Below, piece by piece: positions 10,635-62,597 of a DNA stretch of 64,000 nt. This DNA is from Sipunculus nudus (Eukaryota > Annelida > Sipuncula > Golfingiida > Sipunculidae). The DNA lies in assembly GCA_026874595.1 (NCBI GenBank), contig CM049306.1:19273019-19337018 (forward strand), written 5' to 3'. Below the pieces are notes generated by a model. That model did no database searches, was not told the DNA's origin, and saw only the letters and a list, made by a program, of their open reading frames with translations. The position numbers and the translations under genes are program-made. Numbering within the stretch: the stretch's first letter is position 1; every line of letters begins with the position of its first letter.

Positions 10635-13600
10635 GTAGGTCACGTGCTCCATTACCTCACCCTTCCGCCAGATAGGTCGTTTCTACTCAGAACGAATCTC
10701 TTCTGTTTGGGCGCTGGGGAAGGACCGAACTTCTTGACAAGTGTAGCCTGGTACCAAGTTCCCTTAACACGAAATTAACGGACGGACGAACCATTAACGA
10801 TAACTACAGCACATATATACCGGGTTACTTATCAGCTAATAGTCAGACGTCAGCTGAGCTAAAATTGTGGGTTCCCTTAATTTGCCGAAGTTCAGCCCCG
10901 TATATATTATGCACCTATGTAGTACGTCCCAGTACCCGTGTCAACATGTTTTTCTGGGATAATTTTTCATACGTGTAAAGCAGTGTAAACCTTTCTTGTC
11001 CAAAGGTTGCAGGAGCTATTCCGCCGACTACCTGCGTAAAAAGTAATGCCTTACCTTGTTTTGATTTTGTATGAGACAATCTAAAACATGACAAAACAGA
11101 TATATAAAATTCCTTGTCTGAGAACTGATAATAAAAAAAAAAACAGTCAAACATATGACGTCAGTCAATTGAAGGTGACGCGCGACCGAACATTGTGACG
11201 TCTTTGTGACGTCACTGTTGTCTAACGAACACAAAACGCAGCCATAGACACTGAAAGTGCACCATGGAGGAATTTACTGTCCAGCAGTGCCGATAAGACG
11301 CCAACCACGGTATTTCAGCATAAATAAGGCAAAAGAGTCGCAAAGTAAATTCGTTTTACATGACATAAAACTACTTTACACAAAATTCAACGCATTTTAA
11401 CGGACTACATTGGCTCCTTTTCACCACTTGTGTATTTCCGCTGTCTGTGTACATGTTGATGCCGCGCGGTGCATTATTGGAGTCAGATTTTGACTCCAAC
11501 AATCCCCAGACAGCAGTGTCGTACTCTTGAGAGTCCGAGTCTGCGAAGTGTGCCATTACCTCTTTCTACTTTTCCGTTTCTGCATTTTCATCAATGGACA
11601 TGCCAGCGGTATACAAGATTAACATGTCTATTTTAGAGTCATAGTTGTTAGCTCAGCTGACTATAAGTCATCTGAGCTATAGTCGTGGTCCATTGTCCGT
11701 CGTCCGTCCGTCTGTCTGTCCGTCCGTCCGTCCGTCCGTCTGTCTGGCAAGTTTCGACACCGTTGGACCTACGAATCTGAAATTCGGCATACAGTTAGAT
11801 GTCCCCAAAATCTCCTACCATGCCGAAAATTGGGTCAATAGGACTTCGTTCCTTCGAGATATTAAGGAAAAACCTCAATTTTTTATTAGAAATCTATTTT
11901 CACATTTCAGGACTGCCTAATATCAAAACCACTCATCAGGTTCTCTTCATATTTACCATAAATATTCCTCTATATAGTTTCTATGTACATGCCAGATATT
12001 AAGTAATTTTTTATTAAAAATTTATAAAACCTGTAAATAAAAAAATGATTCAGATAAAAACTTCTTAATGGAAAAAGTGGATATGCTTTATAAAAATAGG
12101 ATTATATATAAACTTAAATGCATTATTCCCTTGAAAGAGAAATAAAGGTATTAGTCCATTCTGTCCACTTGCCTGTCCATCTGTAAATTTTCATATGCAT
12201 CACAGTATCTCAAAACTTTTACTGTTTTTCTTTATGACAGTCTTGTCAGAGTATTAGTTTGCAATCATATATTTAGAACTTTACTATAACCAAGTAGGAG
12301 GGCCCCTTTCCTCTTAGCTTTTCATATTCTTATATAAATGAAAAACATTACAATAGAATATTTCTACATCCACCTTCGTGCTGTCCTTCTTTCTCCCTTC
12401 TCCAAACCCCATCCCAAAGTCAGCCTCAGTAAGCAAGAACAAGATGAATCAGATATGTTCATACTTTAATATTTTGTATAACTATTAGTACATAGGTACC
12501 TATGTACATGCCAGAAATTATGTCAATATTGTGTAATATGTAGACGTAGTGGGCATCACAATAATGTACCTTGTCAAGACTAAAGAGATATTGTGTCATA
12601 CAGCACCTAGTTATAATAATTAATACTTTTGTAATGGACTTATATTAGTCTACTTGCATATGTGAAATGTGTTTTCTTTTTCCTCTATCATGTTTTTATC
12701 TATACTAAAAAATTCAAATTTTCATTTAAGAATATGAATCCTGTATATTTATATTCAGTTTAAAGTGTCTTAGTTCATGTTAAGGCCATAAAATGTACAC
12801 TATTTTTAAAATCTAACAACATTTTTTTGCTGATTGTAAACACATTTTTTATTTGATCACTCATTTTCATATCATATTGAAAGATGTATACTATTTTAAG
12901 GAGCCAATTACAATAAATCTGTTTTTGATTAAAAAATATTAATCTAAACAAATGAAACACTATTTACATTACTCCATAAAAGTTTGAGGAATCATTTATA
13001 ATGAGTATGGTGATTTTTATATATCTCTATTTGATGTTGTGTATACAATAACGTAATCTAGAAAAAAAAATCTTCTTAATGACACAAATCATTTATTTCA
13101 GGTAAGTAAGTCCTAAGGACTGTATTCTTAATTGTCTGATGAGCAGAATGTAAGTCGTGTTTTGTAAGCTGTATATAAAGTTACATACATTTGTATATTT
13201 CAGTGAGTTTTATTTGATATATATTTTATCCATTAAGCAGGTACTCTTCAGCTTTAATTAAATATGTGCATGTTGTATGTCTATTATACTATCATTTCCT
13301 TGCTGGGTATACAGCTAGTAAATAGTAAATACACATCCTGTGTGATGAAAAACAACATAACAATAAACAATAAATTAATAATTTTGTATTTTTTTATAAC
13401 AAATTTGAGAAAAATTAATAGAAAAGGAATTTGTTAGGAGATGAGTAAGAGAAAATTAACTTGCAGTTACTGATGATGTAAGAATCTTGTATGGATGGAT
13501 AGAATGTCAATGTCAATGTTATTCCAAATAACACCATGCAGTCACCTATGGTATTTTTCAGTGAAATTTTAATGATAAAAAAATAAATCATATTATTTAT

Positions 13601-14090
13601 TACTAATCATTAGGGATCATATGAAGGAAATTAATGATAGACAAAGATGCAGTTGATAATATTAATCTAGATTCCTACTGTGTCTAGTGTGTAGGTTGAT
13701 GTGAAAGTAGTCCAAAGTGAATATATTACATTTATTTTTTTTTAATATAAATAAAAGCCATAAAACCAGGTAATTATGATCATTATTTAAATGTGTGAAT
13801 TTTGTATATTCTGGATTCTCAACATCATTGTTTGGCTAAAACTGAATAAGTACTAGACATAGTGCGAATGCTTTGCAAATGTATTTAATACAAATATGAA
13901 TATGTACTGCATTAAAAAATTTTATTGCATAAGAATGGGAATTCAGGTAAAAATGAAAGTATTTGAATACCATTGCAGATACTTTCAAAATGTATTCATG
14001 AATGCATTCATGAATATATTCTATAATATTATTTTAATAATCATTGTATCCCCAGACAAAGTCGGGGGATACTATGTTTTCATACCGGTC

Positions 14091-14122
<32 letters not shown>

Positions 14123-17100
14123 GCATATAAATCTTGTTGGCGCGATAACCCAATAAATATTTCACGGAACTTTACCAAACTTGGTATATGTATAGATATG
14201 GGTAAGAGGACGACGCCTATTTAAAATGAGGTCATCACCTTTACTAGGAGAGTGTCCTTGACCTTGAATAGGTCCAATTTTGGGGAAAATCACACAAATT
14301 CTTTAATATCTCAAGAAATCTTGCATAGATTTATCCCAAAATCAAGATGATGGAAGATCTTGGATAGGGTTGTCATGTTCCAGAAACTGGTGGCGCCACC
14401 TATTATTCTTTACTTGTTTTCATGCCGTTTAATACCCCCAAAATTGCCACCTTACAGTACTGTGAGCATTATAAGTAAAAAACTAATGGACAGATTTCTT
14501 TTATATTATGCATATACATAGGTATGGGTTATGGAATGATGTTTATTTAAATTGGGGTCATGAACTTTCCTATGATAGTGGCCTTGACCTTGAATATTGC
14601 CATATATGGTGAAAATCACACACCTCTTATGATATCTCCAGTGTTGATAGCCATATGGATTTCAAACATGACTTATGTATGGCCCACCACTAAAGTAAGA
14701 ACCCTATAGGTTCTAGGGTCATGAGGTCAAAGGCAAGGTCACTGGACTGGCATTTTAAAAGATACTGTGGATGCATTTTCAGTCAAACATTTCATCTCAG
14801 ACCTTTCATCTTGCACATATAAGTCATCTGCCAATAGAGGAAGACCCCTATCAGTTTTGAGGTCACAAGGTCAAAGGTGAAGGTCACAGGAGCCATCTGT
14901 CCAAAAATTAGTTCCTGGATGATAATTCCTGCTTTTATTGATGTATGGATTTCAAACTTGACTTGTATATGTCCCATTGGAAAAGCAAGACCCAAATTTA
15001 TTTTGGGGTCATGAGGTCAAAGGTCAAGGTCACAGGACACATCTTTAAAAAGATGTGAATGCATTTTAAGCCAAACTTTCATCCCAGGTCTTCCATCTTG
15101 AATATATAGCTCACTTGCCAATAGTGGATAATCCATATGAATTTTGGGGTCACAAGGTCAAAGGTCAAGGACACAGGAGCTATCTGTCCAAAAATTAGTT
15201 TTTGGATGATAATTCCTTCTTTTATTGATGAATGGATTTCAAACTTGACTTGTATTTGACCCATTGGAAAAGCAAGACCCGAATTGATTTTTGGGTCATG
15301 AGGTCAAAGGTCAAGGTCACAGGAAACCTCTTTAAAAAGGTTGTGGATGCAATTTCAGCCAAACAAGTCATCTCAGATCTTTCATCTTGCACATATACTT
15401 CACCTGCAAAGAGTGGAAGACCCCTATCAATTTTGAGGTCACAAGGTCAAAGGTGAAGGTCACAGGAGCCATCTGTCCAAAAATTAGTTTCTGGATGATA
15501 ATTCCTGCTTTTATTGATGTATGGATTTCAAACTTTACTTGTATATGTCCCATTGGAAAAGCAAGACCTGAATTGATTTTGGGGTCATGAGGTCAAAGGT
15601 CAAGTTCACAGGACACATCTTTAAAAAGATGTGGATGCATTTTCAGCTAAACATTTCATCTCAGATCTTTCATCTTGCACATATAGTTCACCTGCCAAGA
15701 GAGGAAGAACCCTATCAATTTTTAGGTCACAAGGTCAAAGGTGAAGGTCACAGGAGCCATCTGTCCAAAAATTAGTTTCTGGATGATAATTCCTTCTTTT
15801 ATAGATGTATGGATTTCAAACTTGACTTGTATTTGACCTATTGGAAAAGCAAGACCCGAATCGATTTTGGGGTCATGAGGTCAAAGGTCAAGGTCACAGG
15901 AAACGTCTTTATAAATATTGTGGATGCATTTTCAGTCAAACAATTCATCTCAGATCTTTCATCTTGCACATATAGTTCACCTGCCAAGAGTGGAAAACCC
16001 CTATCAATTTTTAGGTCACAAGGTCAAAGGTGAAGGTCACAGGAGCCATCTGTCCAAAAATTAGTTTCTGGATGATAATTCCTGCTTTTATTGATGTATG
16101 GTTTTCAAACTTGACTGGTATATGTCCCATTGGAAAAGCAAGACCAAAATTGATTTTGGGGTCATGAGGTCAAAGGTCAAGGTCACAGGACACATCTTTA
16201 AAAAGATGTGGATGCATTTTCAGCCAAACATTTCATCTCAGATCCTTCATCTTGCACATATAGTTCTCCTGCCAAGAGAGGAAGAACACTATCAATTTTG
16301 AGGTCACAAGGTCAAAGGTGAAGGTCACAGGAGCCACCTGTCAAAAAAAATTAGTTTCTGGATGATAATTCCTGCATTATTGATGTATAGATTTCAAACT
16401 TGACTTGCATATGTCCCATTGGAAAAGCAAGACCCAAATTGATTTTGGGGTCATGAGGACAAAGGTCAAGGTCACAGGACACATCTTTAAAAAGATCAAG
16501 GTCACAGGACCAACATCTCCAACAAGATTGTGGATTGTTAGATGGAAGAAACTATAAATATGCCAAGTGTCAGTATATGCTGCTAAAAATGGGGGTCTGT
16601 TCTTAAAGGGGGGGGGGGGGTGGCCTACTATGTCTGGGGATACTCTGGCACCAGCGGTGCCAAGAAATGTCTAGTTTCAGTTCTATTTTATTTTAAAAAA
16701 TCATAACATTTCCTTATTATTTTTTAAAATAAAAATTATATTGGCACAATATTTGTTATTAAATTTTAATAAATAGTTTAACTCTTTCATTATATGTGCT
16801 GCTTATAAGTTATATGGCCAAGTCAAAATCTGTGTGACAATAGCACTCCATTTGTTTATAAAATAAATGAAATCAATCCTCTTCCCTGTCTCCAAAGATA
16901 CTATCAAAATCATACATAAGCTAAACACCAACAACTCAAATAAAGCTTATATTTATTACCACACAACAAGCATGTGCCTCTTTCCCAAATCATATTTTTT
17001 ATCATATATAACAGCTGAGCGCCGTGACCCATGGGTTCCTTGTTTTTTGTAAAAATACCCTAAATATTCATGTAAGTAACTCGAGCAAAGGATCACTGCA

Positions 17101-26690: not shown

Positions 26691-28050
26691 TATATTTAAG
26701 TTACTTGCGTCCAGTTCGATGTCTCTTATGAGAATGGATATAAAAAATGCAATCGTTAGAAACTTAGATAAGCGTCATAATTCTTTATGATGGATATCTA
26801 GGATTGTAGAATAGAAAATAATTCTTATTCCAGTGTTTTACGTTAATATCTTGATTAATATTATAATAATTGATTTATTGAAAAATAAATGATGTCTTGT
26901 ATGCTTCAATTATCCAATAACCATAAGCAATAAACATTGTTGATGAGCGAGAGATTAATCAATGCTCATCGCTGACACTGAACAAGATATAAAAATATAT
27001 AATCTATTCGTCATAAATTGGTAAGGAAGATCGAATGAACTTTTTATTATACTGAATCAGCATCACACGGAAAAAATGTTAGAATCTATCAAGAATCTTC
27101 AAGATACTGCGCTGTGGGAAAACGCTGTGGTAACCTGCCTGCGCATTCACTACGCTTCGGCCTTTTGAAATCAGTATGGCAAAGTCAAAGTTGACTTTGC
27201 CCAAATGCCCAAATTGCCCATAAGTACGTACGTTTTTCTTGCGGATACCCTTTAACGTGCCTCTTCTTAAACTGCAAGGACGACAGGCAATAAGAAGATC
27301 AATGTCTCATCACACCCGGCGCCGGGGCACTAAGGAAATGTAGGCATTTTTGCCATCCGTAAAACGGATGAATCGCTCACCGATCCGTTTCCATGCTGTC
27401 CGTTTTTGCGGATACGTTTGCGGAGCACGTTAAAATGTACATATGGAAACAGTCCATCTTAAAAAGAGGGATCCGATTTTTTGCGTACGAGACGTACGTG
27501 ATTTACGGATGAATGGAAACACAGCTTTAACCGCGGTTAAGATGCTGGCATGCATTTTCCCATAAAACTCTTGTCATAAAATTTCTGCATATTCTGAGCA
27601 ATCCCTTCAGATAATATAAATTAATTTCTCCCATTATCCAGTTCTAAAACTCACATGTGGGTATTGTAGCCTTGAACTGCCTTTCAGTACCCGGAGTTTT
27701 TGTGTCCGGCAACGGATTTCACAATAAAAATGGATTATTTAAAATGTCTTACAATGTTTACATTTTTCCAGTCATATACACAATTGATTTCTGTAAGTGT
27801 CAAAATTGACAGATCAACAACGCGTTCTTCGTTTTATCTATCGACTTTCAAAATTGGCCAGCCCTGCGCTTTTGTAGCATTAGATCAACTTAATAAATAT
27901 GCCGGTGTATACTGACCAAGATGCCGTGTTCGTAGTGAAGGAGTCAACGGCGACGGATTTCCCTTCTCTCCAGCAGGTGCCCACAACAGTAGGCGGCTTT
28001 ATTTTCCGAAGGATACATATAAAGGACAAAACGATATGGAATGCACAAAT
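26691..28050. other. Intergenic DNA with palindromes and a possible foldback relic
   Basis: GCAAAGTCAA-AG-TTGACTTTGC (27179-27200) is a perfect 10-bp stem. TTAACCGCGGTTAA at 27527-27540 is a perfect palindrome. Between them, 27340-27530 has GGATC/CGTTTCCAT words on both strands (CCGTTTCCATGCTG, GGATGAATGGAAACACAGC) as in a MITE relic. No gene was recognised. Confidence 0.45.
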
Positions 28051-30375
28051 TACCATGGCAAAATGACAAGTCACCTTTCGCCATGACAAAATGACATGCT
28101 CGCCTGGCACAATGACAAAATAATGTGCACGCCTCACGCGTTGACAAAATGATGCGCACGTCTCGCACCATGATAAAATGACATGCCGCCTCGCACCAAG
28201 ACATAATGACATGCCGCCTCGCACCATGATAAAATGACATCCACGCCTTGCACAATGATGAAATAAAGTACCCGCCTGGCACCATGACATAATGGTATGC
28301 CGCCTATCACCATGATAAAATGACATGCCGCCGCGCACAATGATGAAATAACGTACGAGCCTCGCACCAGGACAAAATGACATGCCGCCTCCCACCATGA
28401 TAAAATGACATGCAGCCTCGCACAATGATGAAATAACGTACACGCATCGCACCAGGACAAAATGACATGCACGCCTCGCACCATGATATAATGACATGCT
28501 GCGCCGCACATGACAAAATGAAATGCACGCCTCGCACCAGGACAATATGACATGCCCAATCGCACCATGACATAATGACATGCCGTCTAGCACCATGATA
28601 CAAATGATACATGATATCCACGCTTCGCACTAGGACAAAATGACATGCCGCGTCGCATCATGATATTATGACATGCCCTCTCGCACCATTAGGGCATGAC
28701 ATGCCGCCTCATGCCTTACAAAATGACATCCACGCCTCGCACCATGATACAAAAAAATCCAAGCCTCGCACCATGACAAAATGACATGCACGCCTCGTTT
28801 TTTGACAATGACATGACGCCTCGAACCATGATAAAATTATAAGCAGCCTCGCACCACGATTAAATTACGTACACGCGTCGCACAATGACATAATGACATA
28901 CAGTCTCGCACTTTGATTAAATTAACATGCACGCCTCGCACCATGATAAAATGACATCAACGCCTCGCACCATGACAAAATGATATGTCGCATCCCACCA
29001 TGACAAAATGACATCCACGCCTCGCAACATGATACAATCACATCCACGCCTCTCGCCGAGACAAAAAATGACATGCTTGCACCATGACATGAGAGGACAT
29101 GACATGTCGTCTCACGCCTTACAAAATGACATGCAAGCCTCGCACCACGACGAAATGGCATGCACGACTTGCACCATGAAAAAAATGACATCAACATCAC
29201 GCACCACGACAAAATGACATGCACGCCTCGCACAATGACAAAATAACATCTACGCCTTGCACCATGATACAAAGACATCCACGCCTCGCACCATGATAAA
29301 ATGGCATGCACGACTCGCACCATGACAAATGACATGCACGCCTCGCAACATGACATAGTGACATCCACGCCTCGCACAATGACAAAATGACATGTACGCC
29401 TCGCACCATGATACAAAGACATCCACGCCTCACACCATGACAAAATGACATCCATGCCTCGCACCATGATACAAAGACATCCACGCCTCACACCATGGCA
29501 CAAAGACATCCACGCCTCGCACCATGATACTATGACATCCACGCCTCGCATCATGACAAAATGACATACACCTCGTACCATGAGGAAATGACATGCCGTT
29601 TCACGCCTTACAAAATGATATCCATGCCATGCACCATGACAAAATGACATCCACGCCTTGCACCATGACACAAAGACATCCACGCCTCGCACTATGACAA
29701 AATGACATCCACGCCTCGCACCATGATACAAAGACTTCCACGCCTCACACCATGAAAAAATGACATCCACTTCTCGCATCATGACAAATGACATGCACGC
29801 CTCGCAACATGACATAGTGGCATCCACGCCTCGCACCATGACACAAAGACATCCACGCCTCGCACAATGACAAAATGACATGCACGCCTCGCACCATGAT
29901 ACAAAGACTTCCACGCCTCACACCATGACAAAATGACATGCACGCCTCGCACCATGATACAAAGACTCCCACGCCTCACACCATGACAAAATGACATACA
30001 CGCCTCGCACCATGATACTATGACATCCACGCCTCGCATCATTACAAAATGACATACACCTCGTACCATGAGGAAATGACATGCCGCTTCACGCCTTACA
30101 AAATGACTTCCATGCCTTGCACCATGACAAAATGACATCCACGCTTTGTACCATGATACAAAGACATCCAAGTCTCGCACCATGACAAAATGATATACAC
30201 CCTCGTATCATGGCAAAATAATACGCAGGCCTTGCCAATAGAAAAAATGACAAACACGCGCAGCACTATGTAAATGATATGCATTAAACGCTTTTATTTT
30301 TTAAAACGCCATTATTGATATAATGAAATGCTCGCCTCGCATTATGGAAAATGACATGCATGCCTCTCGGCATGT
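28051..30375. repeat. 29-bp-unit minisatellite, about 80 units
   Basis: Units carry CCACGCCTCGCACCATGA followed by CAAAATGACAT, with common variants (ATACAAAGACAT, CATGCCGCCTCG). The unit of 29 nt is not a multiple of three, and its minus strand has no stop in any frame, so long minus-strand ORFs (one of 330 codons) arise with a 29-residue periodic peptide. The last part (30265-30320) is interrupted by AT-rich sequence. The array lies between the 3' ends of the two genes. Confidence 0.9.
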
Positions 30376-32534: not shown

Positions 32535-32791
32535 TTAGGTCGTTGATTGTGGTCTGGTGGATATTTTCCCTCTTAGGTAGGGGTTTCGTCTACTCCAGGA
32601 TGTGAACCGGAAAGGAGCCCAGTCACAACTGCGCATGCTCCCACACCTCTGCTTGTCCAGCAGGTTAGTACAAGGCGGAGACTTACGATCTCTGTTCAGT
32701 TGGAAGCGTCGCCTTATTTTCCGACCGAATCCGCATGTTCTTGAGCACGGGCTCCATTGTGACCATTGAGAAACGATGCATGCGTACACAT
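32535..32791 (-). CDS. SPON2: Spondin-like exon 4: thrombospondin type-1 repeat and C-terminus
   Basis: The acceptor TTTTTTTCCAG (minus strand) precedes the exon. The exon encodes YACIVSQWSQWSPCSRTCG, six cysteines of the TSR (282, 293, 297, 318, 327, 333), and a basic tail ending RPQSTT-TAA. The Asp codon is split 1+2 with exon 3. Confidence 0.92.
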
Positions 32792-35700
32792 CTGGAAAAA
32801 AATACATAAACAAAACAAAAAATGAAGATGAAACATTTAAATTATTATTAGCTCATGTCTTATAGATTCTCAATTCATGCAACCGATTTAAATATCTATG
32901 TGTGAATATGGATATTTGAAGAAATATTTTGGCAAACAGTTTGTCTAAATATAGGTACTGTACAAACACGCCTTTCTTTAAACAAGGGACCTGTGGGTCA
33001 CGGTGCTCAGCTGAAATAGTTTATGAGAATACTTTTTAACAAAAACCTAACATATTGATGCGGCAACAGTAACTTTTTTGTATATTATTATCTGAGAAAT
33101 GTACACAATACACATATTTTGTGTTGCCTTTGTACTTTTACGGGCTTACATGAAAGGGCAGTAGCCTCTTATGATAACAAATTTGTAGAAGTATTGATAA
33201 TTCAACTAAGTGACTGTAATATATGCATGTAAATTATAAAATATGCTTTTTCAAAATGTGGGTCCTGTGATCAAGTTTGATATCCATTTGTTAATCCAAA
33301 CTGGAGTTATCATTTAGAAATAAATTTGTGAACAGATGGCCCCTGTGACCTTGAATTCGACCTTGTGACCCAAAAATCCATAGGTTTCTTACACTATTGG
33401 CAGGTGAGAAAAATGTGGAAGATGGAAGGTTTGGCTTAAAATATTCTACAATCTTTGTAAAGAAGTGGGTCCTGTGACCTTGACCTTTGCCCTTATGACC
33501 CTAAAATCAAAAGGGTTCTTACTTTACTGGTAGGCCATATATTAGTCAAGTTTGAAACCAATATTTCAATACAACCTGGAGTTATCATCTGGAAACAAAT
33601 ATATAGACAAATGATCCCTGTGATCTTGACCTTTGACCACACGACCCCAAAATTAAAAGGGTTCTTACTTTATTGGGGCCATATATAAATCAAGTTTGAA
33701 ACCAATATGATTATCCCAACTGGAGTTATACTTCAGAAACAAATATGTGGACAGATGGCACTGTGACCTTGACCTTTGACCTTGTGATCCCAAAAACAAG
33801 CAGGTTCATCTCCTATATCTCTAGGTCACCTATATATGTGAGATGGAAGGTGTGGGATGAAATGTTTGGCATCCACAATCTTTCTAAATAAGTGGGTCCT
33901 GTTACTTCGACCTTTGACCTCATGACCTAAAAATTTAGAGGTGGGCCATACATAATTCAAGATTGAAATCGACATGTCAATCCAAACTGGAGTTTTAATC
34001 GGGAAACAATTTTGACGGACATGCAGAAAGACGAACAGACGGACAGACGAACGGACAGTGTTTACTATAGGGCATCCGCTTAATCAAGAGGGGCCCTTAT
34101 AACACACAAGGTTTCAGGACACTAGATGAAACCGCATCTCAATATAATTTTGATGTTTCAAAATAAAGGGAAAAAATCATAAAAATAGAAAAAATAGAGC
34201 TGACGCCACCTGTCTTCAGGTACTGAAGAAACCAGTCATGATCAATAAACACGCCAGGTTTCGGGACACTAGATGAAACCGTAGTCGAGAAACTGACATA
34301 ATTGGTGTTATTTAACGGTCTCCTAAATTGGAGGGGGGGGGATCGTAAAAATGCAAGTCCTGCCACCCGTTATCGGGAACTGACAACCCTATTTAGGTCA
34401 ATATTCAAGGCAAGATTCAGGGCAATCCATGCATTAATTATCAATATACTGGAGGTTTGTATCAAATTTTTAATTATTCGGGGGGGGGGGGGGTACTTAG
34501 AATCCCCATAGTTCGGAGAATATAGGTCACAGTGACCTTATTTCAGGTTTCCAAGGAAATATTTTTTTGACCTCCCTTTATTCAGTTACAGATTTCGAAG
34601 TCCAACGGTGTCAAAACGTGCCAGCCTAACAGACAGACAGGCAGGCGGACGAACGGACGGACGGACGACGGACGCTGACCGATTACTATAGCTCAGTTGA
34701 CTCAAAGTCAGCTGACCTAAAAAAACAAACTCATAAGAATACCTTTCTGCTGTTCATCTGCGAGAATATCCTCGTTGGTGTCATTAAGATCGTTCTCCGG
34801 AAAATCGACAGATGGCGCAAACGTTGCACCTGCGTCAGAACCGGTCCCGCCGTAAACGTACTGCAGTTTTAAGACCACGGTGGCGATTGAAGGAAGGGAT
34901 GAACGTAATGGATAGTAAAAGGACCCTGCTGGATGTGAAGGAGACTTGCTCGTTATTGTTCGTATCTTCTTCTGCAGAGTCTCGGGATACTTCGGAGACG
35001 TGAAAAGTCGGCCTTGATCAACCCCTCCGTCCTTGACCTGTAGCTTGTACATCTTCTGTCGGAGCCAAGTCCCACCAGAACACAACTCCACGCTGTCCAG
35101 TCCCACAAACCAGTCCGGACTAGGGACCAGCCTACTGATCATCGATACCTAACACAAAATATGAGACACTAATCTGTGGATGAGTAAAATCAAATAACAA
35201 GTGACCCGTGGGTCATGACGCTCAGTCGACTGACATGTTGACAATATGTCCTTGCACAGACAACTAATTAAAAAATGTAGGTGGCATCATTGTTCATGCA
35301 TATTAGCTTAAGTTCATCAAGATCCATAGGCACAACAAATCTGATGACAAACCAACCGGCCTTTCATGAGGAATCTGACAATTTGTGTGTATTTTGCATT
35401 ATTTCTAGGGTGCTCAAACATACCCCAAAAACTCTAAGAATATAGTTCACTGTGACCCAATTTCAGGTTTCTGGAGAGAACTTTTGAGGAAATCTCAGGA
35501 TGTCAAGTTAGAAGATTCAGGTCCCAAAGATTATGATTCGTACCCTACTTTGGTATCAAATTTTTAATTATTCTGAGGGGTGCTTATAAGCCCCATAGCT
35601 CAGAAAATATGGGTAACAGAGAACTAAATACACGTTTCCAAGGAGACTTTTCATGTACCTCTCTGGATGTAAAGTGAGAAGATTCAAGGTCCAGCGGTTA

Positions 35701-38700
35701 CGATTTGTGCCCTGTTAACAGATGATCGCATCTTTAAAGGTCTCTAAAATAGAGAAAAAAAATCTTCAAAAACTGATGAAACACTCCATGATCAATATCC
35801 ATGCAAAGAATCATCGTAATCAATGCATTCGTTGTTCAGATACTTGAGCTTTTTGTATCAAATTTTTCATTATTCTTGGGGATAATTTGGAGCCCCATAG
35901 CTTGAAGAATATGGATAACAGAGACCTAATTTTAGGTTTCCAAGGAGACTTTTCATGGACCTCTCTGGATGTAAAGTGAGAAGATTCCAGATCCAGCGGT
36001 TACGATTTTTGCCCTGTTAACGGACAGACGGCTGGATGGCCTGACGGAAGACGGACAAAGAGTGATCGCTATAGCTCAGATGACTTACAGTCAGCCGAGC
36101 TAAAACAGAGAAGCATATAAATACAAATAGGTATAACGTATGCAGTTTTAGGGTGTATATGTTGTGCGGTATCCTCCGATCTCTCTCATCTCGAAATAGG
36201 CCTGCACTAAAATACCCGAGTTAATTGACAACGGTTATGGGTCAGCCCCTTTTTATGATTATCAATATGTGGAAATCAGTTTTCTGGGTGGCGCAGGCCC
36301 ATCTAACAATGTATTTATATTGATAAAAATAATAATAATTTAGTAAGAAATTATTGCAATACTTATTACCTTAACAATGAAAATACAAGGATACCACTGA
36401 TTTTTTTTTAAATTCCATAAAATATCAAGGATTTTTTAAAGTTAAAAAATACCGAGAATTAAACCGATGTGCAAAATATAAAATAATTTAGATATTTTAA
36501 ACTTTTCGCTTATTAAAGCCAACTATTAATTACCTACTCCCAGTAGAATTTATATGATTTCTTGCTCACTTTGTCTTCATATTAATGGACTGTATGAAAT
36601 TCCTGTTAAATAAAAACTTCTTATAATGTCTCTGTTACAGAGGTATGTACTTGTTTATCTAATAGCTGTTAGTAAACATGCTGAAACGTCTCCAGTTGCA
36701 AACCACTATTTGAAAAACTCTGGTTCATTTCACTTGCTATCAGATCCAGATGCCTTGTTGAACGTGTTTGGACTACTTTGCGGGTCCCAACATTTTATGT
36801 TAACAAAACAAACAGCTCGTGTGCGGTGGGCTCGGCGTTTTCTGCTCTAATATATATCGGTCAAAGGTAAAAATTGGAACATGAAGCAGAGTTTAAAAAT
36901 ACCCCAGTTAACCTCTCGGAATATCGGGAATTCAGTAACATGGTCGAAATTCGTTGAGCCTTTCCTTGAACTTTGATTGCGTATAATTTCGCTCACATTG
37001 ATAATTTTGTAAAGTTTTACACCATGAACACTCTACTCATAGCTTTATAGCTCTATGCATGCACCAATAGATCAGGGATCGGTGAACGGGTCTGACCAAT
37101 CTCAAGTTGGGATCCCAAATTCTATGATGGACGACTCAGTATCAGATCGACATGTTGTTCCATGTTTGAACGCGCTTCTGCTGCTGGGGAAAATGGTGAG
37201 CAATATGACTGGTAGATGGCGCAACATACAAGAACGCGCCTTCGTGTTGACAGGGCAGAACTTCTCGCATAAGTGTCATTATTGGTTCTGGAATCTTATC
37301 ATTTAAAGTATATGGCGTTAGAAAGCGGAGGTTTTCCCATGGTTACCTAACTATTAACAATATCCACGGAAATCTTTGGGCCCCAGCACACCAGGGTGCA
37401 TGGGACCTCAGTGCCGACTCTTATCACTGAAGCCCTGTAAAGTCGGTATGGTGAATAACTTATATTTTCGTTTTAGGGCATCACAAAGCTCTTTGAGGAC
37501 CTGAGGAATTTTTGCATATTAGGACGTCACGCTTTATGTGAAGGACATCTATCAACAGCGGCCAATTAGCCTTAAACAATGGACAGATCTACACGCTGGT
37601 AACTTGAAATCATGCATTCAGGGAGTCCTTACATGGTCCAAATGGGCCATTGACCAAATGTGGGCCATGGGCCAATAGTGAATTCATTGTATGCACTATC
37701 GTAACGAATCAATTTTGTAACGATAGGCCCAGTACTCTCTGTCGAAATGACGGGGGCAGCGTTTGCAAATAGTGTGGCCCCTGTGAATTCGTGTTTAAGC
37801 ATGAATGACACATGAATCGTCGAGTTTGTTTCAGCCAGCGGATACATATATTTTACATGTTGACTACCATCGTCACGTGTACACTTGAATATCTCACAGG
37901 GGACCATGCCGACTGGCTGAGAAATAATTTTGTTATGCCAAGCTAATTTTGAAGAGCGATGGGCTAATAAACGGTAATTGTTACACCTGCTACCACTGAG
38001 TCTGGAGTTAAATTGGTGAAACCTTCACTGAACGGCCATCGGACTCAGCATATGGGAAGGGGTTAATAATAATATGATCGATCGAATAAGGATATTAGTA
38101 GCAACTGGGACGGCAATAGGGGATATCTGAATGAAACGTGAGTCTGGAGCAAATTTCTGGGAAAGACCGCAATTAACTGCTGACATCACTAGAAAAGACC
38201 TTAGTTCAGCGAGGCGGTGATGTGTGGGGCCGACCGTCCCACAGCCATGGAAATTGTCGGTCAGAGAGCCACAAAGTAATCATACAATTTGCCGCGAGGT
38301 GGCAGTAATCGTTGTAAGGGTTGCGGCACAGCAAGAGCCAGTTTTGTGTTGGGATTTTGTCATGTTCATAGATCGTGAATGCGTCATAGCAATTCGTAGG
38401 AGATCATAGACATAGGTACCAATAATCAAATCACAGGGTACAAAGAGTAGTCGCAGAAAATCCTGGGGGTGGAGGGTGGTGACCTTTGTCGAACTAAAAA
38501 TTTTGGGAAATAGAATAAGCACTTAATACTTGAATACAAATCCGGATTTTACATCGTGATAAACTACCCTGATTTGTGCCATTGAAACCTAATTTTTTTT
38601 AATGTTTCTACACTGTGTGAAGGGGAAAACCCTTTCCTAGGAAGTATGGAAAGGGACCATCCCCCCCCCCCAACATACACTCACCCTCCCCCCCCCCCCC

Positions 38701-45700: not shown

Positions 45701-48700
45701 TAACCTTAAATATATATGACTGCACAAGCAAGGATAAATGTGTGCCACGGTTCATCATCGAGGGTTGCTTCACAGGCCAGCTCTGACGACCAAAACCAAG
45801 ATGGTCCAATTCGGTTACACCGGTGTACGTTGTACGCCGGGGACACGTCCGCCCATTTCGTAAATTCACACCAAACTTGTTCCGTAATATAAGTGAATGA
45901 CTGTACCTGACCCCAGCGCACACTGCGCAGAATCGGACTCACAAGAGGTTTGAGTAGAAACGACCTCTGGCGGAAAAGTGCCCCAGGCCGGGACAAATAG
46001 CTCACTCTCTCTCGACGGTAAATAATCCTTCATAACCTCCTGGGTTCGATGGTGCTCGAGATCTGGGCTATCTAGCACCTGTGGCTCCAGCTAGCACAAA
46101 ATTTAAAAAATATATATTTAAAAGATTTGAGTAAACTTGCTAACAAACAAACCGATCAACTAACAAACGACGACAAAACACATTACCTCCTTTTGAAGAT
46201 AAACATACAGACCGTCGTCTCTGTTTGGCAGAATCAAGTTTGGATGAGAAAAATATATTTCTGTCGTTATGACACCACCACTGATTTGTGCATTTGTCTT
46301 AGTAGAAGAAATAAATTACAGTATGCTTAAAACGACACCACTAAATTTCGTGCATGGGTACTGGGGAATGCCTTGTTGCAACCACTATTGTATCAACGTT
46401 CAGTATTGTAATAAGTATTACAATATTGGTTGGTAAGGGCCAGTTTTTGCCAACCACTATTGTAATAACGTTCACTTTTGTAATAATTATTATAAAACGG
46501 AAAATTTCCCATATTCGGTGAGATTTTCCAAACAAATGACATTCCCCGATAAAACCCACACAATTCATACTCAGTATCCTCCCAAAAGCATAAGTTTGTA
46601 TTTTATATATCATTACCCCAGTGACCGTGTCGAGCAATCGCTATTGTAATAACGGTCACTATTGTAATAAAAACAAGCGGTCACTTTTATCTCACCACTG
46701 AAAAAATAATTTCCCTCATCGTTCATCTTGAAATGCCACCATTGTTTTATATTTGTGTAAATTCAAGTCTAAATTGCTTCAGATTTGTGGTATTCCAAAC
46801 GTTATAATCCACTCTTACATCATTACGATACATAATTTATTACAACAGTGAGAGTAATTACAATAGTGACCGGGTGGTGCAAGCACTTATAGTGGTTGCA
46901 CGACATAGTCACTATTGGGATAACTCCAGCCTGATGATCCAGTAGGCTCGGGTGTAAAAGCCAAACAGACTCACCTTTTTTTATTATTTTATAAAAAGAA
47001 TTAAAACCTCGTAAAAAGTATAAAAATAATAAAATTGTAAAAAAATGTATAGCAGTTTTAAAACAATAAAGAACAATTTAGGTATTAAAACAGTATAAAA
47101 AGTATAAAATTATAAGAAAGTATAAAAGTATTAAAATCGTATAAAAAGTAAAAAGTATTACAATAGTATAAAAAGAATTAAAAGAATATAACACAGTATA
47201 TAAGTATTTAAAAGTATAAAAAGTATGAAAGTATCAAAACAGTTTAAAAAAGTAATAAAACGGAATAAAAACTATTAAGTACTTAAACATTAAGAGTATG
47301 AATATAGTATAAAAAAATAAAAGTATTGAAACAGTTAAAAAGGATTAAAGTAATGAAGTTATATAAAAGTATCAACGTTTTAAAATAATATAAAAAGTAT
47401 AAAAGCAATATATAGTATCAAAGTATTATATTAAAAAGTATAAAAAAGTATTAAAGTATTGAAACAGTTTAAGTATTGAAACAGTATATAAAAAGTATTC
47501 ACATACTGATATGGTATAAAAAGCATGAACGTATTAAAACAGTATAAATAATTATTTTAGTATTGATACAGTATAAAATTATTAAAGTATTAAAACAGTT
47601 TTAATGTCTATGATAGGTATGAAATCAGTATAAAAAGTGTTAAAGTATTAATACAGTGTAAAAAACTATTAAAGTATTAAACCAGTGTTACAAGTATGAA
47701 AAGTATTGAAATATTATAAAAAGAGTAATGAAATAGAATTAAAGCATACATGTATGAAAACAATGCAAAAGTATTAAGGTATTTAAACATTACAGAAAGT
47801 ATTAAAGTATTGAAACAGTATAAACAGAATTAAAGTATTAAAACAGTATAAAACACATAATAGTATGAAAACAGTATAAAAAGTATTAAAGTATTAAAAC
47901 AGTATAAGAAGTATTAAAGTTTTAAAAGAGTATAAAAGTATAAAAAAAAATTATTGAAACAATATATATAAAAAGTATTAAAGTATTGAAATAATATACA
48001 AAAAGCATAAATGTATTAAACAGTATATAAAGTATTAAAATATTAGTACGGTCAAGATCCTGTATGATTCTTCAGATCAACAGGATATAGATAGCGGTAC
48101 TTTTGCCCCTCTAATAAAAGAGAACCCAAGAAGCTGTCAGAGTGCCATCTGTGTCAGTCGTCGGAAACTTGAACTGGAAATCTAAATGAGGCAGCAACCT
48201 GATTTGTCATATTTGACAAAGCCTCGACGCCTTCAGATATCACTTGAACGAACAAGACCAAGAGTAAAATATGGCTGTTAACTTTCTAAAAGCAATGGTA
48301 AAAATTAGTCTTTTGTATTTATCTTAAATTTAAAAAACTTCATAAAATGCTTCATTTTAATTCAGACGATGCCTTTAGCCGCCATCCTGAACTTCTTAAT
48401 TGGCCTGAAAAATCACTTATGCCTATCTGTAAATTATTGAATTTTATATCACACTCATATCAAGGCTATACACCTCATTTGACCTTGCATTTGACCTTGT
48501 ATGAGTTTGCACACATTCTGTTATATTTTTGTATACTCATTCATGTTTTCATTCATAACTCATTGATAATATTTACCTTATTTATGGTTTCAGTGTTTGA
48601 TGATTATTTCACAAACTCGTTGTCCGTCAGTATATAGCGGTTCAACTTAAAAGTTAAAAGACCCTGGTGCTATGACTGTCAACTGATTTGTAGTTCTGTC

Positions 48701-51700
48701 CTACAGGCCTCGGTTATGTTGACTTGCAAGCTTTATTACAAGTGCTTAAGTACAAGTTTTTGCATTTCTACATTTACCTGCGAATACATCTTGTTAATCG
48801 TTTGTTATGGTTTGTCATATATCCGACGGGAGTCCTCAATGACTGGCGCACGGCTGTGTATACGGATACTACTTATAAAGGCAGTCTTTTGAATCCCAAT
48901 TATACAAGATTTATCATTAGCTTTTACTTTTAATAATCAATATTCTTTTATTTGTCGTATCTTGTTTCCAGCCAATAAAAATTCTATTAACATTAATTAC
49001 CATTTACCACAATATTTAATGCTGTAGCGCTCAGTAAACGGTCGGGGGTTCGTATAGTCAATTTGCAATATCATGTTTATACAGATAAAGGCGTCTGCGT
49101 ACCAATGCTACTTCATCCCTGAACCCTGAGTCCTCTAGCTCAGAACGACCCAGTAGACCTCTCGGTCCTGGCCCCTCGTTATGTGTTTACCGAACACGCT
49201 GGAGAAAACATAACCTTAATAGACCTTGTGGCGGGTTTAGTGCAGCCCCAGATTTATTTATCGCAATTGAGCATTAACTTAGATGTTTGTGTCGGCATAA
49301 GAAATATCGTGCCTAATAAAGGTCTACCAAAACCTTATGTTTCTGCATAGTATATTAGCTTTCTTTACCTAAAACCCATGTAACATTATGGATGGAAAAT
49401 TTGGAAAAGTGGCCTTAAAAAACCACTGATTTATTATTAACCCGGACACTTATAAAAAGAGTGAGAATATCACCAGTGGGTAGAATAACTGTGACACAAA
49501 TAAAAGTAAAAGTGGTAAATATTTGCTGAAGAAAATATTTATCATCAAGATGATGGTCTGAAAATTACAAATGAGCCTATACACATGTTATGTATATCAC
49601 CTGATTACCCCTGGTGACCCATAGCGTTCCTGTGGTCTAGTAAATATGAATTCTGAACTAGCGACATAAAAGGAGTCTTAGGCGCATTCAGAGGCTGTCT
49701 ACATGTACAATGTAAAATACAACACGTGACGCTACCATGATTAATGTTATTTACAAATGTGCAAAGCAATAAACACGGGGCAGCTGCACGTGCCAAGTCA
49801 TAAAACAAACCTGCTGTGTAACAATACGCGTGAGTGGCACTTGCACCATGTCATATAAAACATTCTTAATACATGTATTACAAAATATGAGCCATACGTG
49901 TGATAATTTTGTCATTAACCGACTAAAGGCATGTTGTCAATCAGATTCAGTTACCTTGATTCCCGCCAAATGAGGCGAGTACCGAACCCGTGTCACGGTC
50001 CGGTTATTACGATTATATATCGAACATCTCGGTTTAAAAAGTGCCGGAATGATCTAGTCAAACGCCCTTGACCAACTAGATGAATTCAACAGGATATGAT
50101 ATCCTGCGTATAAAAATTCTCATTGCTCTCGAAGTGTCTTACTGGTATATTGTAAATAATAAGTTAATTATCATATATCATGTCATTATTATATATTAAA
50201 AATGTCTTTTAGTCCCCCGCCGTCGCCGAAGGCGCAGTCGGCGGGGGATATAGAAATGATGAGCGTCCACCCGTCTTTCCTTTCGTCTGTCCTTCACAGA
50301 TTTGACATTAACGCAGTAACTCGAAAAGAATTTTAGGCACAACCACCAACTTGCAGTATTGATGCACCTTAAGATAGGTTGGGTCAAGTTCGAATATGGA
50401 TGACCTTGATGCATTTTCATGGTCACAGAGGCGATAATGCTAAAATGATGTTTACGCAATAACTCGAAAAGAATTTGAGGCACCGTCACCAAACTCACAG
50501 CATTAATACACCTCATAAAGGGCTACTAGGTCATGTTGAAATATGGATGACCTTGATGCATTTTCAAGGTCACAGGTAATCTTGGTGGGTGACATTGACC
50601 CATCTAAAATTCCATACAGGTATTCACAACATTTTACTGCCACCACAGGCGGGGGACACACTAGATCTGTTCCACATTTTCCCTAGTTTAATAAAAAAAA
50701 TTTTGGGGAGGTAACCGCATCCATTTTTTATGCTGTCTTATCTAATCCTTCATCTAAGTATATACATCTGCAGAGTTCCATATTTCGGTTTGGGACTACG
50801 TGAAAGGGCGGTAGGACTCGCTTTCTATCTTATTTTTTTTTTGTATCCTTGTGTCATCCAGGCCCGCTGTCTACCGGGTCCTGGGTGTGTAATCATCCCC
50901 ATTGCTGGGTCATAACATCGAGGGGCACCCAAAGACGCACTCGTTTGTAAGTGATACACGGCTGTGTCGCGCAGTCTTCCCATTAAGCCAGCAGAGCGCT
51001 CACCCTGGATGGGGGCCGACCGTGAAAATCTCACCGCCTCGGCTGAGATTCGAACTCACTGACCTCCCGGCTTTGAGTCCTGTGCTCTGTCCCAAGACCA
51101 CCGAAGCCGGTTTTATTCTAAATGTAAATGTTTAAAGATGTTTAATTTTGCCGGTAACCATTATTCTGTGATCATTGAGAAGCATTATAAGTAAACGCCC
51201 ATGCTTAAATCTAGAAATATAACTTTACAGCCCTGTCACGAACCATTCCCGTCAACATAAAAAGGTGATACGCCTGATATAAAACCCTTTGTGCATGACA
51301 CCGTTCTGTCTACTATATTAAAGTAGTGTCTTATTTTTAGCCTTTTTAGCCTTTTTTTTTGTTTCAAAGCTCCTTCTCTTACTTAATGGTCCACGGTAGC
51401 CTGATCTGTCCTAGCATTGTTGTCCTACCTTAGAAACACTTTCATGAGACAACGCGACAAGAAATACACCCAGAGACCAGCGCTAAGTGCACAGCTGATG
51501 TGGTTTTTCAGACCTAAACACTCTCTGGATAGGCCCTAAAACCCCTTATGATCATGACCTGGTCATACATGGTCAATTTCAATGGAATTTGTGGAAGGTT
51601 AAACAATATCTTCCCTTTTTTACTATTTCCAATTCTTTACACAATATCGCTGAACGATTTCGATGAATTATAAGATTTTGTGGTCGGATCCGCCACCAGT

Positions 51701-54700
51701 CAAGGCAAAATGAAAACTTTTTTATAGACCGATCACGTTTTGGAGCAAATCTATATCTGATCCCTCTTATCGGTGTGTGAACACAATATATCAAACAGAC
51801 CTTAATGAAATTAAGTGAAAATTTGTGAAAGGAAAGTCCATGGGCAAAAAATAAATAACTAGATATCGGCTAAATTGTGGGACATGTTTGAAAGCGGACC
51901 CAGTTGGAGGTGTGCAGCCTGTTGGCGATTATCAGTTTTTTTTTTACCGGGGTGGACTGGAGGGGATGCATGTCCCCCCCCCCCCTTCTAAAGTCCTGTT
52001 TCCGCCCCAAGGTTATTCAATTACACTGAGATGTAAGCATCCGTCCACTTGTGTGTAGCTCATCATACCTTGTGTTTTTTGCAGAAATTGTTTAGTAATT
52101 TAAAAAAAAGATCACCCTTTCATAAATCTTCACGATAGACTTACAGTGTAGGACAACAAGGATAGACATGCACGCCCTGGTTTTAAGGATACTCATTGTT
52201 TGTCTCATGTTTCTGTTCATTGTTTGTCTTCTGTTTGCGTTTATTGTTTGTCTTATGTTTCTGTATTGTTTGTCTTCTGCGTATTGTTTACTTGTCTTCT
52301 GCTTGTGTCTTGCTTGTCTTCTGTTTCTGTGTATTGTTTGTCTTTTGTTTGTGTATTGTTTGTCTTCTGTTTTTGTTTATTTTTTCTCATCTTTTTCTGT
52401 ATATTGTCTTTTGTTTGTGTTTAGTGTTTGTCTTTTGTCTCCTGTTTCTGTTAATTGTTTGTCTTTGTTTCTGTTTAAGAAAACGGGTGATGTCATTAAA
52501 ACAGCAATGTTGTAATAACATTTACTTCATGTTCAAAATACTCTGTTTTTGTAGTGAGGATTCTCTCATTAATTTCACTCCCAAGATAATAAACGGAAAC
52601 TGATTTAACGAAAAGGTATCTGTAACACTCAAATCATGAAATATAACCTTAAAGCCATGTCGAATGCCATTCTACTCAACATATCAAAGATGCCATCCCC
52701 GATGTAAAACACTTTGAGCATGGCCCCATTCCGCCTGTATCTTTAGTACCCTCCTGTTTTCTGATTTTCGGTGTTTTATTGTACCGTGTACCGTGTCGGT
52801 CCGTGCATCTGGTGTTACTCAGTCCGGTCCTTTTTCACCTATTTTCTGCTGTTCTGTTTGGTGAGAGTGCGACAGTGAGGGATAGACGCGCACAGAGGAA
52901 GTAAACAAACACTTCCTATTGTTTAATTGGTATGCACGTTTCGATGTCGTGATAATTTGCAAAAAAATTATAAAAAAAACTCCCTAAAAGGAAACGGCTC
53001 AGTGTGTCTCTTTCGGATTACATACCTGTTGTCAAAAATATTTAGTGAACGCTTATTTAAGAGGAACTTCCGTTGATTTTCTCAAGGTATTTTTTGACAA
53101 AAATTAAAAAAAAAATCTTAGAAAGAAATGTAATCACTTAAAGACATGCCCCTTCAAAGCTTATTCAAGTGGCTCACTGGCCATGATGCTCAGCTGAATT
53201 TAACGTGAAGCATAGAGTGTTTCACTCCTTACCCAGTGCTGATACTACAGTCGTACTGAACCCATCCCGCTAAACTACTGCTTGCAATGGGCTGTTTTGT
53301 TGTGTCCTAAGGGTGTTCGAATGTTCAGACTGATGAGTGAGGGGCACTGCGGGTGATCCTTAATGTTTTCTGATTCTTTTTCCATTGTCTGGTGTAACGT
53401 AACTCGTTTGAGCAACCTGGTCTGAGATTTTTTTTCTTGGTATGCCTTAGAGATAAACGAGACCAGTCACTAGAATAGGTGGACTTAGAAAATCTTAAGA
53501 AGTGGCTGTTGACTCCATTGTTATGCGTAGATAATATTTTTTATTTGTCTTCAAACCGGATTTGAATAACTCGAATAAAAAAGGTTACTGCCGTAATAAT
53601 ATTGTAAAGACTCGCTCACTGTCCCGTTGCGGTGAGGTCCCACTCATGTAAAACACTGGCACGGCGCATGAGGACTTGGTGGCTGTATAAAGCAAAGCCG
53701 ATTATTGCCAGCAATGGGTAAGTGGAAAGCGTTATTAAACGAATGAAGCGGGACTAATACGCAAAATGCACACCAGGCCAATTTTTTTTGGTAACAGTAT
53801 ATACTTATATAGTGATTGTATATAACAGTTCCTGGATCTAGCTTTCAAAATTGTATTAAAATACTCCTGTTTATGTTCAAGTAATGCCTGTTTGCATAAT
53901 TCAAGTCATGGTGACTGAATTACCTGAATGAAGCTATGCCTTTGAAAGAAATACATATTAAACAAAGGGGGGGGGGGGGCGCCAATGTTTACGGTGTTAG
54001 AGATGTTTAAATTATTGCTATTGCCAACGTAATCTTAAAAATTGATGTGACGGTGTCAAAGTTCTTGCTCTTTCAATCGACCTAAAATACTTACTATTGG
54101 AGAAAATATTGCTTGTCCACGTCCTGGCATATTGACTGATGTTTTTGAAGATCGATTCCACATTAAATGCCAGTACCATGGGTATACAGACAATATATGA
54201 AATATATGAGATTTAACGGTTCCTTTTGCGACACTGAAATTTCTCATTTTGTTCATCGGTTCATCAGCTTATCATGGTGAATGAATGAATGAATGATTAG
54301 ATGAGGCACGTTCTTCCTTTTATGATTCATTTGCAAAATATAACTTCTATAGCTCTTGGTCGCTTGAAAGATTTCATGACGAAAACCATGTGTGTCACGT
54401 GTCTTACAGACATAGATCATAATTTTGGGGTTTCCAAAGAAAACGTTGCCTATACCTGTACTCATGATGAACTTTCAAACATTATTAATTTTAATGTGCC
54501 ACAGTAAAGGATGTTGAGCTTAGAGATCTGTGGCACGTTTGTTGTAATGATATAATCTGAAAAAATGTCTCATTGTGATGAAAATATAGGTTTCATGGAA
54601 GAAGTCCGCGTGCAGCTCGTCATAAACATTACCACGAGACAAATGTTTCACCGTCAGCTGGTTAGAGCTTTCATGACAATATTGTGTAATAAAAACTGTG

Positions 54701-55184: not shown

Positions 55185-55274
<90 letters not shown>

Positions 55275-57169: not shown

Positions 57170-57171
57170 TA

Positions 57172-57323
57172 CAGTAGAACCTCTGAATTACGGACAGTGA
57201 CGGGACCGGACATTTTGCCACAAAACAGAGGTGTCCTTAGTGGGAAGGTTATAAATTTGCCGTAATTATATTACTGTAGATTTGCCCATAGTACAGAGGT
57301 GCCCGTAATGAGAGGTTCCACTG
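57172..57323. mobile_element. 152-bp MITE with TA target duplication (Tc1/mariner-type)
   Basis: The ends CAGTAGAACCTCT and AGAGGTTCCACTG are inverted copies, extending to TACGG-CA / GCCCGTAAT. TA lies directly outside both ends (57170-57171, 57324-57325), the duplication typical of Tc1/mariner elements. No ORF. Confidence 0.85.
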
Positions 57324-57325
57324 TA

Positions 57326-58835: not shown

Positions 58836-58940
58836 CCGAACTGTCTCGCTAGTGAAGCTGGATATTCTAGCGAAGCGGTTGGTACGCCGGATTTGTACGC
58901 CATGGATTCGAATCCGGGATCGACCAAATGTATTCCCTTG
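58836..58940 (+). repeat. tRNA-like sequence (SINE head or pseudo-tRNA)
   Basis: TCTAGCGAAGCGGTTGGTA resembles a tRNA A box/D arm, and GGATTCGAATCC (58911-58922) is a B-box-like T arm followed by CGACCA. Acceptor-stem pairing is poor, so a functional tRNA is unlikely. Confidence 0.5.
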
Positions 58941-60556: not shown

Positions 60557-62597
60557 TTTTTAGCTCAGCTGACTGGAAGTCATCTGAACTATAGCGATCG
60601 TCCTTCGTCTGACGTCCATCCGGTTGTCCGGCCATCCGTCTGTTAACAGGGCACAAATCGTAACCTTTAGACCAAGAAACTTTAAACTATACATCCAGGG
60701 AGGTCCTAGGCAGATCTCTTTCGAAACCTGAAATTAGGTCATGGTGACCTATATTTTTGTGACCTACGGGCCGAAAACATGATTTTGAGCACCCAGAGGG
60801 GCAGACGGGACACAACTTGTATAAATAAGGCCTAGTATCCTCTAACGTAACATTTAGGGAAGTCCTCGGCAATGTCCTTAAAAATCTGAAATTAGGTCAT
60901 TGTGACCAATATTCTGCGACCTATAGGAAAAAGATGTCATATGAGCACCCTGAATGTCAGATGGACACAAATCGTATCTGTTAGACCTAGAAACATCTAA
61001 GTGTTCATCTAGGGAGGTCCTAAGCAAATGTCCTTGAAAACCTTAAATTAGGTCACTGTGACCTATATTCTGCGACCTATAATAAAAAGATTTCACATGA
61101 GCACCTTGAATGTCAGATGGGCACAAATCGTATCTGTTAGGCCTATAATCGTCTTACCCAACATCCTGGGATGTTCTAGGCAATTCTCCTTGTAATCCTT
61201 AAATTTGGTCACCGTGACCTACATTTTGTGACTTAAGGGCCGAAACATGCTTTTGAGCACCAAGACAGTCAGACAGGACACAAATTGTATCCATTAGGCC
61301 TAATATCCTCTAATGTAACATACTGTTACGTCCTGGCCAAATGTCCTTGGAAACCTGAAATGAGGTCACAGTGACCTAATTTTGCGACCTATAGGAAAAT
61401 AGGGGCCAAGACAGTCAGACGGGGCACAAATTGTATCCATTAGGCCTAGAATCCTCTATCGTAACATTCGGGGAGGTCCTAGGCAAATGTCCTTGGAACA
61501 TGAAATTATGTCACTGTGACCTATGGACCGAAAACATGATTTTGAGCACCCAGACAGTCAGATGTGGCACAGATTTTATCCATTAGACCTAGAATCTTCT
61601 GACTTAATATTCTGTGACAGCCTCAGAAAATGTCCTTTGAAACCGGAAATTAGGTCATGGTCACCTATATTCTGTAACCTATCGGGAAAGTGTCATATTA
61701 ACACCCACACAGTCAGAGGGGCACAAATTGTATCCATTAGGCCTAGAAACTTCAAACATAAAATCCAGGGTGGGCCTAGGCAAAGGTCCTTAAAAGCCTG
61801 AAATTAGGTCACTGTGTCTTATACTGCAACCTACAGGGAAAAAGGAGTTGTCAGATAGGCAAAAATTGTATGCATTAGGCTTAGAATCATCCAAGTAGTA
61901 ACATCCATGGACTTTATAGGAAAATCTCTTTGGAAACCAGAAATTAGATCGTGGTGCACATGTTATATTCTATGCGCTATGAGCCACATAAATTAGAGCA
62001 CCCAGACAGACAAGGTACAAATTGTATCTTATCTATTTTTCTTTGAACCTTCTATTGAAAAAAAACTAGGGAGGTGTTGGCAAATCACCTTTGAATCCTG
62101 AAATTAAGTAACTTAATTCTTATAATATGTCAAATACATTCAGATAGGGCATAAATTGTATCCTTAAGCCCTGGAATCTTCCTACACAACAACCAGGGAG
62201 ATCTTGGCAAATCCCGCTGGAAACCTGCAGGTGACAGGCCAAGAACATGATTTGAGTACCTTTAACATCAGATGGACCATGGGTACAAATTGTATGCATT
62301 AGGCCTAGTTCCTGGGCAAATCTCCTATGAATTATAAAATTAGGTCATGGTGACCTATATTCTGTGAGCTGGGACCAAACAAATGATTATTAGCCCCCAG
62401 ACAGACAGGGTATAAATTGTATCCATTTACCTCCGAACCTTCTATGAATCCTGAAATTTTTATATTTTTGTCCATTTTTTACAAAGTAACATTAGCCAGA
62501 GGCTTTTCTCACAGACAATATATAACATTTATAACAGACATGAGTACCCAGTCAAATTCCGCTGCGCGTCATGGCCCATGGGCCATGGCACTTGTTT
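60557..62597 (+). mobile_element. Hairpin-ended element D (2.0 kb) with ~11 tandem units
   Basis: 5' end TTAGCTCAGCTGACTGGAAG then TCATCTGAACTATAGCGATC; 3' end CTGCGCGTCATGGCCCATGG then GCCATGGCACTTGTTT. A GTCC/GTCT tract follows the 5' hairpin. The core (about 60640-62420) consists of ~100-170-bp units with ATTGTATCCATTAGGCCTAG, CCTAGGCAAATGTCCTTGGA and GAAATTAGGTCA-TGTGACCTA. No protein is encoded. Confidence 0.7.

Follow-up and report, generated by a model that had tools for sequence, protein, structure and literature searches.

The window analysed here, a 64,000-nucleotide stretch of Sipunculus nudus DNA, contains four copies of an element (copies A–D) that have their ends in common and differ in much of what lies between, which raises the question of what kind of mobile element they represent and how such mosaic units are assembled. 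A previous reading of the sequence without database searches (the sequence-only reading) had likened them to Helentron-derived elements and to the pearl elements of bivalves. Here, the ends, hairpins, repeats, coding content and surroundings of the copies were analysed, and the result was set beside published descriptions of related systems.

Four copies with common ends

Copies A–D lie at the places and on the strands that the sequence-only reading had assigned to them, and in each of them the 5' end is located upstream of the 3' end on the same strand (Table 1). Without the flanking T's, they are 5395 bp (A), 1738 bp (B), 906 bp (C), and 2035 bp (D) long. Their general order from 5' to 3' consists of a T-rich flank, a hairpin TAGCTCAGCTGACT-NNN-AGTCATCTGAGCTATAG, a GTCC/GTCT (GTCY) tract, a repeat named core1, a variable middle and a 3' module, in which CAGCTGAGC is followed by a TGACCCAYGGGTCA-type palindrome, CTTGT, and a T-rich flank. 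The end pair of the family is AGCTCAGCTGACT...CTTGT.

When only copy A supplied the 5'-end query (31 fixed positions), copies B, C, and D differed at 1, 1, and 2 positions, respectively, while the best match in 100 dinucleotide shuffles had 9 differences. Four additional matches at 5 differences came from the opposite strand, on which these hairpins were read a second time. When only copy C supplied the 3'-end query (29 positions, ungapped), 5 differences were found in both A and B, 8 in an isolated end near 53164, and 9 in D, and the best shuffle likewise had 9. The poor ungapped match of copy D is explained by a 5-nt insertion, and its 3' end was recovered once a gap was allowed, the gapped scores being 33 (A), 33 (B), and 30 (D) against a maximum of 21 among 2818 control stretches of the window.

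A TTT|TAG boundary, which had been proposed for the whole family, is present in three of the four copies, but copy A reads GTTGT|TAG. In all four copies the flanks are duplicated over 1–2 nt, all T, with nothing longer shared, and therefore give no sign of target duplication; as judged from these flanks, A–D were inserted at T-rich/TT targets.

Table 1. Positions in the window of the HINE-like elements, their relics and the spondin-like matches.
Feature	Position	Strand	Composition, limits or match value
Copy A	11648..17043	+	5' hairpin, GTCY tract, core1, AT-rich middle, nested second-family element, 3' end
Copy A, 5' hairpin	11649-11682		
Copy A, GTCY tract	11695-11744		
Copy A, core1	11746-11837		
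Copy A, 3' end	17012-17043		
Copy B	32981..34724	-	5' module, core1, core2, possible second left-module remnant (~34070-34010), core3, 3' module
Copy C	35196..36105	-	5' module, three core1 units and weak core2 fragment, 3' module
Copy D	60557..62597	+	5' module, 12 tandem core1 units, 3' module (palindrome TGGCCCATGGGCCA, 5-nt insertion)
Copy E	1719..2927	+	right arm of 5' hairpin, short GTCC tract, one core1, core2 repeats
Truncated 5' end	10770..10865	-	limits by eye
Possible isolated family 3' end	53165..53202	-	borderline by similarity
Second HINE-like family, nested in A	14046..16674	+	outer limits by eye
Third HINE-like element	50211..50669 (about)	+	tract and 3' side by eye
Spond_N	34720-35148	-	2.5e-27
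Spond_N	40463-40768	-	2.3e-8
Spondin-like TSP1	32538-32852	-	1.8e-10

Hairpins, subterminal inverted repeat and GTCY tract

A 5' subTIR near the terminus, together with a complementary IR, is present in all four copies. Compared with 200 shuffles each, DNA folding of the 5' hairpin gave z values of -5.1 (A), -4.0 (B), and -3.3 (C), and folds as good were reached by 0, 0, and 1 of the 200 shuffles, respectively; the hairpin of copy D folds weakly (z -1.6, with 15 of 200 shuffles as good). At the other end, CAGCTGAGC is the reverse complement of the 5' GCTCAGCTG and thus makes up a subterminal inverted repeat, which the sequence-only reading did not mention. It is exact in A and B and mismatched at 2 of 9 positions in C and D, and its distance to the element end is 31 nt in A, B, and C and 36 nt in D. 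Among 20,000 random 46-nt stretches, the fraction that matched as well was 0.0011 for A, 0.0019 for B, 0.033 for C, and 0.031 for D.

The 3' palindrome is visible in the sequence, and its folding is within the range of the shuffles (z 0.8, -0.2, -0.6, and -1.0 for A, B, C, and D, respectively). One of its pairs, A-T in copies A–C, is G-C in copy D and at the end near 53164; the covariation score over these five sequences, with one two-sided change, was matched by 54 of 500 shuffles and is not significant. The GTCC/GTCT tract expected after the 5' hairpin does occur in all four copies, but it was called as a tandem repeat in A only; in the other three it is shorter or degenerate and was recognised by eye, being evident in B and degenerate in C and D.

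A blind scan of the window for the whole HINE plan yielded 4 matches against a shuffle mean of 1.9 (range 0–5, n = 20), which is not significant. These matches were copy A, the element nested in it and two others taken for chance, while B, C, D, and the third element were missed. The case is carried by the repeated ends together with the subterminal repeat and not by the plan alone.

Repeat types in the interiors

Three repeat types were delimited by profile searches seeded with copies in the window. The first, core1, is a conserved stretch of ~119 bp within a unit of ~156 bp and has 18 matches (one each in A, B, and a decayed copy E, three in C, and 12 in D), with a tandem period of 156 bp in copy D. 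It starts 87 nt after the 5' end in C and D, 97 nt after it in A and B, and directly behind the tract in E. The second, core2, has nine matches (four in E, three in B, and one weak match each in C and the nested element), and core3, which is 289 bp long, has 11, of which three lie in B and the remaining eight in the element nested in A. The interiors had been described as interchangeable, and this applies to what comes after the first core1, where the three repeat types vary; the first core1 itself, next to the GTCY tract, is a constant part of A–E.

In copy B, the core3 array is preceded by a second CTATAGTAA plus GTCY stretch at 34010-34070 (-). Compared with the left modules of copies A–D, this stretch scores 38, 46, 24, and 20, respectively, and none of 400 controls reached these values (maxima 19, 24, 21, and 19). 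When the first 52 nt of the modules only were used, 46, 14, 99, and 5 of the 400 controls equalled it, respectively. As the score comes mostly from the GTCY tract, we regard this stretch as no more than a possible relic of another left module in copy B. Moreover, core3 occurs both in B, which has AGCTCAGCTG ends, and in the element nested in A, which has GTATCCCCAGAC ends. On the basis of this sharing and of the possible remnant before the core3 array of B, it might be speculated, as a tentative and rather doubtful idea, that repeat arrays are passed on among HINE families whose ends are unrelated. In that case the ends would serve as cassettes, the 5' module of which includes a fixed first monomer, and new satellite arrays would be built by rolling-circle read-through or recombination.

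Decayed members and other HINE-like families

Three further places had been listed as truncated ends. At 1722 there is indeed 5'-end material, but rather than a mere truncated end it is the start of a fifth, decayed copy (E) with core1 and core2, for which a search for the 3' end found none. The end at 10866 retains the 14-nt 5' repeat (1 mismatch) and a short GTCC tract, without the partner arm. The isolated 3' end at 53164 has a gapped score of 21, which 2 of the 2818 control stretches equal, and it is therefore not secure by itself.

As well, two elements with other ends are present in the window. The one nested in copy A is characterized by a GTATCCCCAGAC / GTCGGGGGATAC hairpin (z -5.3), a CCG tract, six complete and two partial core3 repeats of 289 bp, and a 3' side with GTCTGGGGATAC and the palindrome TGGCACC-AGC-GGTGCCA (z -3.0 for a 61-nt stretch), and so repeats the HINE plan with ends other than those of A–D. 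The third element possesses a AGTCCCCCGCC...GGCGGGGGATAT hairpin (z -4.6), a GTCC-like tract, 1.8 copies of a 147-bp repeat, and GGCGGGGGAC on its 3' side.

Coding content and database searches

Open frames of at least 150 aa are three in number in the window, all within 27880-29917 and none in any copy. A 29-bp minisatellite with ~77 copies, located at 28052-30259, shows strong strand asymmetry (GC skew -0.31 in 28001-30000) and yields long open frames on the - strand. A Pfam search with 10 stop-to-stop ORFs of the elements (five in A, two in D, and three in E) gave no Rep or helicase match, and three of these ORFs had sub-cut-off matches to unrelated families (E 0.05 to 0.22). ARAGORN and Rfam returned 0 matches each on the window. 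The ends and repeats, used as patterns, had 0 matches in IMG/VR and GTDB contigs, viral and prokaryote collections that are little informative for an animal element. In open papers, the end strings of all three families led, among the matches listed, to papers that are unrelated as judged by titles and abstract starts, in an exact search that sequences in figures, space-broken strings and one string with ambiguity letters escape.

Genomic setting

Copies B and C reside in two introns that flank one exon of a spondin-like gene on the - strand; by eye, B starts ~23 nt past the exon end, and C ends 48 nt ahead of the exon start. At the starts of these two copies (34719-34743 and 36102-36112), the T-rich target and the first bases of the element together read TTTTTTTAG|G or TTTTAG|C, which by eye is like a 3' splice site and lies in sense orientation in the spondin introns. 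Such a splice-like string could favour exonisation. Upstream of copy A there is a sulfotransferase-like exon (10319-10672), with PDB chain 3rnl_A matched at 6.5e-5 and Pfam below the cut-off.

Several other repeats are scattered through the window. The stretches 9384-9561 and 50876-51046, on opposite strands, form a 72% identical pair with a B-box-like GTTCGAATCTC, in which ARAGORN calls no tRNA and which looks like a tRNA-derived SINE. A 159-bp inverted repeat, 87% identical, is formed by 41752-41909 and 42192-42350 with ~280 bp between them and looks MITE- or foldback-like, and a degenerate AT-rich array of TAAAAAGTAT-like units occupies 47059-48045.

Identity of the elements and proposed mechanism

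The published HINE description fits copies A–D part for part, the GTCY tract and the T-rich targets included, which bears out the likeness to Helentron-derived and pearl elements. HINEs are defined as non-autonomous Helentrons (PMC4067079), and we conclude that A–D are very probably a family of this kind, i.e., non-autonomous elements that an autonomous Helentron would mobilise in trans through its Rep/helicase(-endonuclease) protein. They are probably a new family, as set beside the published descriptions of Cg_HINE and pearl.

The rolling-circle-like anatomy, the short 3' palindrome and the lack of target duplication would also suit non-autonomous elements of canonical Helitrons. However, Helitrons are defined by a 5' TC, a 3' CTRR, and insertion between A and T (PMC4067079), and none of these is found in A–D, the ends of which are TAGCTC...CTTGT, the target T-rich rather than A|T, and which carry subterminal inverted repeats and a GTCY tract, making a canonical Helitron origin very improbable. 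Cut-and-paste MITEs or foldback elements, as which pearl and DTC84 were first classed, could account for an inverted repeat close to both ends, but the one in A–D is subterminal and 9 nt long between otherwise asymmetric ends, and the flanks have just 1–2 T in common, so that the terminal inverted repeats with target-site duplication of a TIR transposon or MITE are both missing and such an assignment is hardly credible. The mosaic interiors and satellite-like arrays might also suggest immobile fragments of dispersed satellite DNA, the common flanks of which would stem from recombination, a highly implausible reading that was dropped, as both ends are sharp and paired in four unrelated flanks, two per strand.

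For a HINE family, the Rep/helicase protein, the nicking, and the single-stranded intermediate are inferred by analogy with the general rolling-circle model of Helitrons and Helentrons. According to this model, the protein would recognise the 5' subterminal repeat or hairpin and nick alongside it in a TT context, and a single strand would subsequently be peeled off by rolling-circle replication up to a terminator, presumably made up of the 3' subterminal repeat, the palindrome and CTTGT. The peeled strand would then insert in T-rich DNA and leave the target unduplicated. As the process would depend mainly on the ends, satellite-like arrays could be gained, lost or exchanged in the interior.

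Copies A–D thus add a probable family to the HINEs, which spread satellite-like DNA, and leave the understanding of HINE-type elements unchanged. A single 64-kb window displays the mosaic assembly: the ends are common and the first repeat is fixed, the arrays vary, a second family is nested inside, and copies have inserted in introns.

Comparison with known systems

In the Pacific oyster (Crassostrea gigas), 11 Cg_HINE elements have been described, in which satellite-like arrays are framed on the left by a subTIR, an IR, and a microsatellite (in several elements GTCY, GTCC, or GTCK) and on the right by a subTIR and a palindrome, and which prefer TT in T-rich DNA, without duplication (PMC7492417). 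Some of them combine related flanks with unrelated repeats, and others contain two arrays (PMC7492417). The oyster genome paper, in its account of subTIR-bearing elements, reports that the autonomous partner was not found (PMC7992393). Copies A–D are similar to Cg_HINE, as described there, in the 5' subTIR, the complementary IR, the GTCY-type tract, the central satellite-like repeats, the 3' subTIR with a palindrome visible in the sequence, and the T-rich TT target without duplication (PMC7492417). Unlike Cg_HINE (PMC7492417), they have a subterminal repeat of 9 nt (imperfect in C and D), compared with normally 11–12 bp in the oyster; core3 is 289 bp long, compared with consensus monomers of 138–181 bp in 13 published clusters; and core1 is kept in all copies of the window.

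The pearl elements, which have been re-categorised as non-autonomous Helentrons (PMC7492417), offer a second parallel. As in the bivalve pearl types (CvA/CvE/CvG, DTC84, and MgE), modular flanks surround short arrays of ~160-bp repeats in our elements, the period in copy D being 156 bp; this likeness is one of architecture (PMC7492417, PMC5139131, PMC11136912). By description, A–D also resemble the HINE of mites and Drosophila and DINE-1 in their subTIRs, a 3' palindrome visible in the sequence, and TT insertion with no target change, and DINE-1 in the 5' IR and microsatellite, while the mite HINE families differ in having subTIRs of 12–15 bp (PMC4067079).
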